A stretch of 64,000 nt of DNA from Planococcus rifietoensis (GTDB lineage: Bacteria > Bacillota > Bacilli > Bacillales_A > Planococcaceae), in assembly GCF_001465795.2 (NCBI RefSeq), contig NZ_CP013659.2, positions 1,010,501 to 1,074,500 of the forward strand. Reading direction: 5' to 3'. Shown here in pieces: positions 3 to 61,615 of this stretch. A model generated the notes under the pieces. That model was not told the DNA's origin. It ran no database searches and saw nothing but the letters and a program-made list of their open reading frames with translations. The position numbers and the translations under genes were made by a program. Each line of letters opens with the position of its first letter. Within the stretch, counting starts at the first letter, position 1.

Positions 3-224
3 CCGGTCTTCGTAGATGTTACCCATTCTACTGGCCGCCGCGATTTGCTATTGCCTGCAGCTAAAGCGGCAATCGCTATCGGAGCTGATGGCGTGATGGC
101 AGAGGTCCACCCAGACCCTGCAGTTGCACTTTCTGACGCACAGCAGCAAATGAGTTTGCCGCAATTCGATGAATACTACGATTCATTGATGAAATTCATG
201 AAGCAGTACGAATTGAAAGTATGA
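3..224 (+). CDS. aroA: 3-deoxy-7-phosphoheptulonate synthase (DAHP synthase), C-terminal part only
   Basis: Only the last 73 residues are in the window; the 5' part lies upstream. The visible part carries [16 protein letters not shown] and [20 protein letters not shown], the end of the TIM barrel in type I beta DAHP synthases, which condense PEP with erythrose-4-phosphate at the entry to aromatic amino acid synthesis. In Bacillus this enzyme is fused at its N-terminus to a chorismate mutase domain; whether that is so here cannot be seen. In B. subtilis the gene directly precedes ccpA, as here. It ends with TGA and is followed at once by a terminator hairpin. The symbol follows Bacillus usage (also called aroG or aroF elsewhere). 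Confidence 0.9.
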
Positions 225-60923: not shown

Positions 60924-60970
60924 AAAAAGATTCCGCTTTTCTTCTTATTAGAATAGCGGAATCTTTTTTG
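60924..60970 (+). terminator. Terminator after gapB
   Basis: AAAAAGATTCCGCT/AGCGGAATCTTTTT stem with a 16-base loop, then T-run. It separates gapB from speD. Confidence 0.8.
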
Positions 60971-61010: not shown

Positions 61011-61039
61011 TTGCATTTCGAAAACATTCATCATATACT
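61011..61039 (+). promoter_or_regulatory. SigA promoter of speD
   Basis: TTGCAT (61011-61016), 17-base spacer, TATACT (61034-61039). Transcription near 61046 would give a leader of about 185 bases before the speD start codon. Confidence 0.65.
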
Positions 61040-61045
61040 ATGAAT

Positions 61046-61231
61046 CGTAGCCAAAAACGGCTGCCACTTCTCAATTCTATTTATTATGTAGAGCAAGGAA
61101 TTAGGAGCGTATATTATTATTCTTATGACTGCTTAAAGGGTTAGGACCTCTCTGGACTAACTTTCCCCCGTGGTAGTCAACTTTGAATATTTTGCGCAAA
61201 ACCAAAATGTTATCAAAGGGGGAAACGAACC
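61046..61231 (+). promoter_or_regulatory. Structured 5' leader of speD with ribosome-site sequestration, candidate riboswitch
   Basis: Elements seen: 5' hairpin GTAGCC/GGCTGC (61047-61064); stem GACTGC (61127-61132) with GTAGTC (61173-61178); inside it hairpin GTTAG-GA-CC-TCTCT-GG-A-CTAAC (61140-61161); then TTTCCCCC (61162-61169), fully complementary to the speD ribosome site GGGGGAAA (61218-61225); and a 14-bp hairpin CTTTG+AATATTTTG with CAAAATGTT+CAAAG (61181-61218, two-base bulge). Pairing of TTTCCCCC with the ribosome site forms a pseudoknot across the first stem and would block translation. I do not recognise it as a known class. Ligand, if any, is unknown; SAM or a polyamine would make sense for this gene. 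Confidence 0.45.
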
Positions 61232-61615
61232 ATGGAAACTATGGGACGTCACGTAATCGCAGAACTTTGGCAGTGTGATTTTGACAAATTAAACGATATG
61301 GACTATATCGAAAAGACTTTTGTTGATGCAGCACTCAAATCAGGTGCGGAAATCCGCGAAGTCGCTTTTCATAAATTTGCACCACAGGGTGTTAGCGGCG
61401 TAGTCATCATTTCGGAATCACACCTGACTATCCACAGCTTCCCGGAACACGGGTACGCGAGTGTCGATGTGTACACTTGCGGAGATCTTGATCCAACAAT
61501 TGCAGCAGATTACATTGCACAAGCTTTGGATTCAAAGCAAAGCGAAGTAACTGAATTGCCACGCGGCATGGGACCAGTCGGCGCCGGAGCGACAAAAGTA
61601 TCACTAACGGTGTAA
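61232..61615 (+). CDS. speD: S-adenosylmethionine decarboxylase proenzyme (prokaryotic class 1B)
   Basis: 127 residues. Self-cleaves at [14 protein letters not shown] between Glu62 and Ser63, Ser63 becoming the pyruvoyl group; H68 and C83 complete the active site. Makes decarboxylated SAM, the aminopropyl donor for spermidine. Nearly the same as B. subtilis SpeD (126). GGGGGAAA precedes the ATG by 6 bases but is complementary to an upstream tract, suggesting translational control. The spermidine synthase gene is not in the window. Confidence 0.95.

Follow-up and report, generated by a model that had tools for sequence, protein, structure and literature searches.

S-Adenosylmethionine decarboxylase (SpeD) commits S-adenosylmethionine (SAM) to spermidine. 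SAM-II and preQ1-II are translational riboswitches built as H-type pseudoknots, and the speD leader analyzed here resembles them in that a loop strand is complementary to the downstream ribosome site across a stem (P1). The speD leader differs from both by the addition of a hairpin (P2), an outer stem (P0), a further hairpin (P3), and a long linker, and by the absence of an Rfam match. A second comparison is with the spermidine riboswitch, a rare SAM-I variant class found before polyamine genes that include speD; according to excerpts of PMC10853860, definitive proof of a spermidine riboswitch was lacking before it. The same excerpts describe an off switch for polyamine synthesis, to which the speD leader may be likened by analogy, but the variant combines a SAM-I-like aptamer with transcription termination and neither was found in the speD leader. 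No SAM-I match was found in the leader of the window (the whole 64,000-nucleotide stretch of Planococcus rifietoensis DNA under analysis) or in 17 other loci, and a scan of the leader, positions 61046 to 61231, found no terminator-like site. The odc1 and potE motifs, as presented in parts of PMC8632094, are likewise candidate RNAs, located upstream of genes that serve polyamine metabolism or transport, and odc1 contains a pseudoknot. They differ in that odc1 occurs in Alphaproteobacteria before an ornithine decarboxylase gene, whereas potE is separated from an antiporter gene by some 200 nt, and its covariation support is poor.

The leader of the orthologous Bacillus subtilis gene has been detected as an RNA peak. 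Passages of PMC3574147 report the speD-gapB region as a 79-nt Hfq coprecipitation peak with a ratio of 14.1, label it "Unknown or speD leader region," and cite earlier B. subtilis reports of a speD leader; those passages differ from the present description in giving no structure, class, or mechanism. Within the literature searched, PMC3574147 was the only source for the terms "speD leader" or "speD motif," and four sequence words of the core were absent. The term "speD" did not occur in the main text, as distinct from the supplements, of the surveys PMC8632094, PMC6429828, PMC7266159, PMC11109978, and PMC2864571, and a term search of the available text of PMC10043782, PMC4448311, and PMC5519356 returned no such named motif.

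In the window, speD is a 127-amino-acid frame on the plus strand, as are all features below, at 61232 to 61615 (PF02675, E value of 1.0e-39), and its product is 100% identical to SpeD of Planococcus sp. SK3692 (L001). A likely promoter, TTGCAT-17-TATACT, was read from the sequence at 61011 to 61039. A prior sequence-only reading of the locus had credited the leader with a good promoter of its own; a similar pair recurred, as judged by eye, upstream of speD in most of 80 relatives, but the match to consensus was moderate (3 of 6 positions at −35 and 5 of 6 at −10) and a consensus promoter scan did not list the pair. Further upstream, a terminator-like hairpin followed by a T-run was read from the sequence after gapB (60924 to 60969); it was absent from the scan list and would separate gapB from speD. 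In the predicted fold, a 5′ hairpin, GTAGCC/GGCTGC, lay at 61047 to 61064, close to where the transcript is expected to begin. Its sequence varied among Planococcus relatives with arms that, by eye, apparently remained complementary (GTAGTT/AACTAC in L008), and it was not general beyond them.

The center of the leader is organized around P1, the stem GACTGC (61127 to 61132) and GTAGTC (61173 to 61178) named in the sequence-only reading, which T61126 and A61179 extend to seven pairs, one of them G-U (strands at 61126 to 61132 and 61173 to 61179). P1 encloses a conserved UUAAAGGG (61133 to 61140), the P2 hairpin (61140 to 61161; GTTAG at 61140 to 61144, CTAAC at 61157 to 61161, and an inner CC/GG), and the stretch TTTCCCCC at 61162 to 61169, which is the exact reverse complement of the ribosome site GGGGGAAA read at 61218 to 61225. 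As an anti-ribosome-site strand, UUUCCCCC, this stretch was predicted to form a duplex of −12.9 kcal/mol with the ribosome site, and its CCC could also pair with the GGG of UUAAAGGG. The enclosed hairpin, the exact complement, and the pseudoknot layout of a P1-loop strand facing the ribosome site were thus all present as that reading had described. The predicted fold also contained its long hairpin, which brings the two complementary stretches together and competes with P1 formation.

The element proved larger than that description. It also includes an outer stem, P0, and many genera have a further hairpin, P3, in which the 3′ strand of P0 is used again. In the window, P0 is possible and weak (UAUUC at 61118 to 61122 with 61185 to 61189, −3.1 kcal/mol), and P3 is predicted immediately 5′ of the ribosome site (61181 to 61218, arms at 61181 to 61194 and 61203 to 61218, −9.7 kcal/mol) in a position that overlaps the possible P0 3′ strand. 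The 215 nt starting at 61046 folded at −56.7 kcal/mol, compared to −46.2 (standard deviation [SD], 4.3) for shuffled sequences (z = −2.44), and 1 of 200 shuffles was as stable. A GGGGG ribosome site is itself not unusual in the window, where it stood upstream of 6 of 92 long open frames, spurious frames included.

With SpeD as the query, the 80 best of 456 matches were taken, all in named genomes, and CTTAAAGGGTTAGGA[C/T]C was found upstream of speD in every one of these loci. When 50 distinct cores were aligned with MAFFT, about 38 columns were invariant, UUAAAGGG among them, and P2 was paired in all 50 without any double change. P1 behaved differently: six of its seven pairs had double changes, with 39 double-change cells versus 5.6 (SD, 1.9) in shuffles and at most 25 in slid versions of the same 50 rows. 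RNAalifold, run without a supplied structure, recovered P1, P2, and the GGG/CCC pairing. A core present in 80 of 80 leaders together with double changes in six of seven P1 pairs is more than chance would give, and the structured speD leader has stronger support than the sequence-only reading claimed for it.

A wider alignment was made from 94 hand-chosen sources out of 220 (the window and 219 loci) and yielded 93 matches and 87 distinct rows; near-duplicates and L145 and L146 were omitted, and L167 was supplied but fell below the cut. L145 and L146 matched the covariance model R1 over 111 bases, and their P2 loops contain a longer insert. Double changes occurred in 10 of the 14 pairs across the 87 rows (167 cells versus 63.6; SD, 9.4), including four of the seven P2 pairs once divergent members were included, in an alignment that was fitted to the structure and so leans towards it. 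Moreover, the leaders are related, such that neither these counts nor the energies given below are independent. Compensatory changes had been anticipated in all three pairings; they were found in P1, in P2 only among divergent members, and in the pseudoknot in part. We conclude that, as judged from aligned sequences, P1 (strongly), P2, and P0 keep their pairing while their sequence changes, that the element stands directly before speD, and that the speD leader is almost certainly a structured cis-element.

Within the order, R1 matched 92 of 261 genomes, and within the class it matched 191 of 398, in 87 of 145 genera. PF02675 was encoded in 190 of the 191 matched class genomes, compared to 292 of 398 class genomes overall; this figure refers to SpeD anywhere in the genome, and direct adjacency was read at the inspected loci, which include 92 distinct leaders. 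Each of those 92 leaders was followed by a SpeD frame, consistent with a link to the pathway. In the one exception (G499), the R1 match lay at a contig end (bases 9 to 70, minus strand). Across the phylum, 10 of 398 genomes were matched, two of them outside the class; one match (G955, L142) was genuinely before speD, and the other (G947, L143) was false on reading. Weak matches that would have pointed to targets other than speD (L143, L168, L169, L281, and L282) were likewise judged false, and a second copy in the genome of the window was not supported, as each search there gave a single match. At L168:1501-1552, in genome G503 of family f17, a palindrome resembles the core on both strands and was judged a chance match.

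Divergent relatives were sought among the 102 class genomes that encode PF02675 and gave no R1 match. In 47 of them, chosen nonrandomly, a common frame or a variant of it was recognized by eye at 48 of 57 loci and in 44 of the 47 genomes. The frame reads UAGGAACC-AGG-AUUCAC ... GUGAAU-GACGYA-GGUCCUAGC ... GCUAGGAAGGGGG, its furthest members were L228, L247, and L259, and CUCCUC or CCCUCG can serve as its anti-ribosome-site strand. No frame was found at 10 speD loci of another SpeD type in R1-negative genomes (L170 to L179); five of these loci (L170 to L174) have a GGGGG ribosome site despite the absent element. A second model, R2, was trained on 38 frame leaders that included no Planococcus and no relative of B. 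subtilis. R2 matched the untrained loci L254 (E value of 5.3e-26), L267 (8e-16), and L247 (8.1e-7) and also the window (2.6e-6), L076, L025, and L142. It matched none of 14 loci judged to be without the frame, and it missed L228 and L259 even though both were among the 48 recognized by eye. In 159 phylum genomes, R2 gave six matches; two were judged false, and one, in G706 of another class, was before speD (L278).

P0 was supported by comparison of flanks. Own partners averaged −6.65 kcal/mol compared to −4.58 when swapped, and among 61 leaders assigned to the group without GGAACC, which still contains L206 (GGUACC) and L182 (GAACC), own flanks outperformed the median swap in 45; P1 was set for 140 of 148 records, the eight omitted being loci without the frame. 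The sequence of P0 varied between leaders while its pairing was kept, far more clearly in other genera than in the window. Linkers before the ribosome site were also more stable than shuffles (mean z of −1.89 over 119 leaders, 81 of them below −1), although the P3 hairpin was not universal and differed between leaders. As UCCUA is common to the 3′ strand of P0 and the 5′ strand of P3, the two are mutually exclusive, and in L278, from another class, three strands common to both were altered together. Within A4, P0 and P3 hardly varied and showed no covariation. In the A4 frame leaders (for example, L233:1359-1479), there is almost no variation in the spacer ACCGAAAG between the ribosome site and the start codon or in the internal loop GACGYA, and the proposed pairings explain neither.

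The inner domains differed between subtypes, and thus no single conserved pocket was found. This difference also bears on the possibility that a protein or a trans-acting RNA (Hfq, a ribosomal protein, or SpeD itself) binds the leader, with the conserved loop as its site. Invariance of the P2 loop would fit a protein site well, and the Hfq coprecipitation peak at B. subtilis speD-gapB (PMC3574147) is in keeping with such a binder, but exchanged inner domains are not, and the passages of PMC3574147 report such peaks at a large number of established riboswitch leaders and leave their functional meaning undetermined. We consider a dedicated binder a serious but unlikely account.

The pairing that would act on translation joins the P1-loop strand to the ribosome site. 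CCCCC in the P1 loop and a ribosome site of five to six G residues before the SpeD frame were found in 92 of 92 distinct leaders (from 93 rows, one being identical; the script demanded at least four G residues, and none failed). Because CCCCC and GGGGG are invariant in this main type, the pairing is without covariation there. Among 125 distinct leaders, the strand was C5 in 102, CUCCUC in 10, CCCUCG in 8, and C4 in 5, and strands paired with their own ribosome sites at −12.5 kcal/mol compared to −8.2 with shuffled sites. CUCCUC strands gave −12.7 with sites of their own type and −9.3 to −10.2 with others, and CCCUCG strands gave −11.5 versus −9.5 to −10.5. C5 and C4 strands had no preference for their own sites, such that two of the four subtypes showed one. 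L247 was rejected as proof of pseudoknot covariation, as its AAGGAG site fit worse than foreign sites (−7.5 versus −10.1 kcal/mol). In minimum-free-energy folds of the P1 loop, in a set in which P1 of L270 was set wrongly, the strand was paired within its own loop in 20 of 20 non-C5 loops and 24 of 68 C5 loops. Complementarity to the ribosome site was present in all 92 leaders, and its covariation is weak.

We infer that the P1-loop strand has two alternative partners. When paired within its own loop (with GGG, AGGA, CGAG, or GGGG, depending on the subtype), the strand would leave the ribosome site free; when paired with the ribosome site, it would close a pseudoknot across P1 and turn speD off. 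In many genera, closing of P0 would occupy UCCUA, and as this sequence is also the 5′ strand of P3, the P3 hairpin beside the ribosome site would open. A metabolite of the pathway, spermidine first and then decarboxylated SAM (dcSAM) or SAM, would bind the P0-P1-P2 region and favor the off state as feedback, where both the direction of the switch and the choice of ligand are suggested by the gene and the layout. That the element acts by hiding the speD ribosome site is likely, that it binds a metabolite directly is slightly favored, and spermidine as the ligand is a tentative choice. The sequence-only reading had proposed a new cis-regulatory RNA for speD translation; conservation, covariation, linkage to speD, and the lack of an Rfam match bear out the first part, and control of translation itself is what the sequence would predict. 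The leader would then be bistable and translational, a new class and probably a riboswitch whose masking of the ribosome site represses speD, and on balance we lean to the whole reading, a cis-regulatory RNA absent from Rfam 15 that controls the start of speD translation as a metabolite-fed off switch.

Two competing folds of one strand would also be expected if the bistable RNA had no specific pocket and were tuned instead by general polyamine or cation levels, temperature, or access of the ribosome, and loops of very different sequence do serve the same gene. Pairing alone, however, needs fewer than the approximately 38 invariant columns of the 50 cores, and we find general tuning rather improbable. 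Less probable still is a leader that sets a fixed level of translation or mRNA stability without switching: the 5′ hairpin near the expected start fits this account and is possibly an mRNA stability element, but in subtype after subtype the same strands have alternative partners. A divergent member of a known family, either a SAM class or the spermidine-sensing SAM-I variant, is very improbable. Although speD is also among the genes of that variant, searches of Rfam 15 with the window leader and with 17 further loci from several subtypes gave no relevant family up to an E value of 1, in agreement with the earlier failure to recognize known consensus elements, and the leader is without a terminator-like site while the variant, in the excerpts of PMC10853860, acts by termination. 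A translated upstream frame (leader peptide) is disfavored as the least likely account, as an in-frame start before the core was present in 27 of 92 main-type leaders and absent from 65, and in 14 of 92 the P1 loop departed from its usual length of 40, a change that would put such a frame out of register.

The speD leader is far commoner than the SAM-I variant class, described as rare in the excerpts of PMC10853860. The element is present in close relatives of B. subtilis (L075 and L076), where simple reporters would allow a direct test of polyamine feedback in Gram-positive bacteria, and exchangeable inner domains would illustrate the rebuilding of a switch while its gene stays the same. The fullest version, which we hold as plausible though short of probable, is a class that extends over the Bacilli-like sample and into at least two genomes from the phylum's other classes, has B. 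subtilis relatives among its hosts, senses spermidine or dcSAM, shuts off speD translation with a bistable strand, and exchanges its inner domain around a fixed P0-P1 frame. An origin in phages or viruses was rejected, as phage records gave no match at an E value of 0.01 and viral contigs lacked the exact pattern. Plasmid records gave one match, again before speD. This record, Anoxybacillus amylolyticus NZ_CP015439.1 (L113), is called a 258-kb plasmid and carries the element within the run polA-mutM-coaE-gap-speD-nrdR-dnaI, which is the usual chromosomal order.
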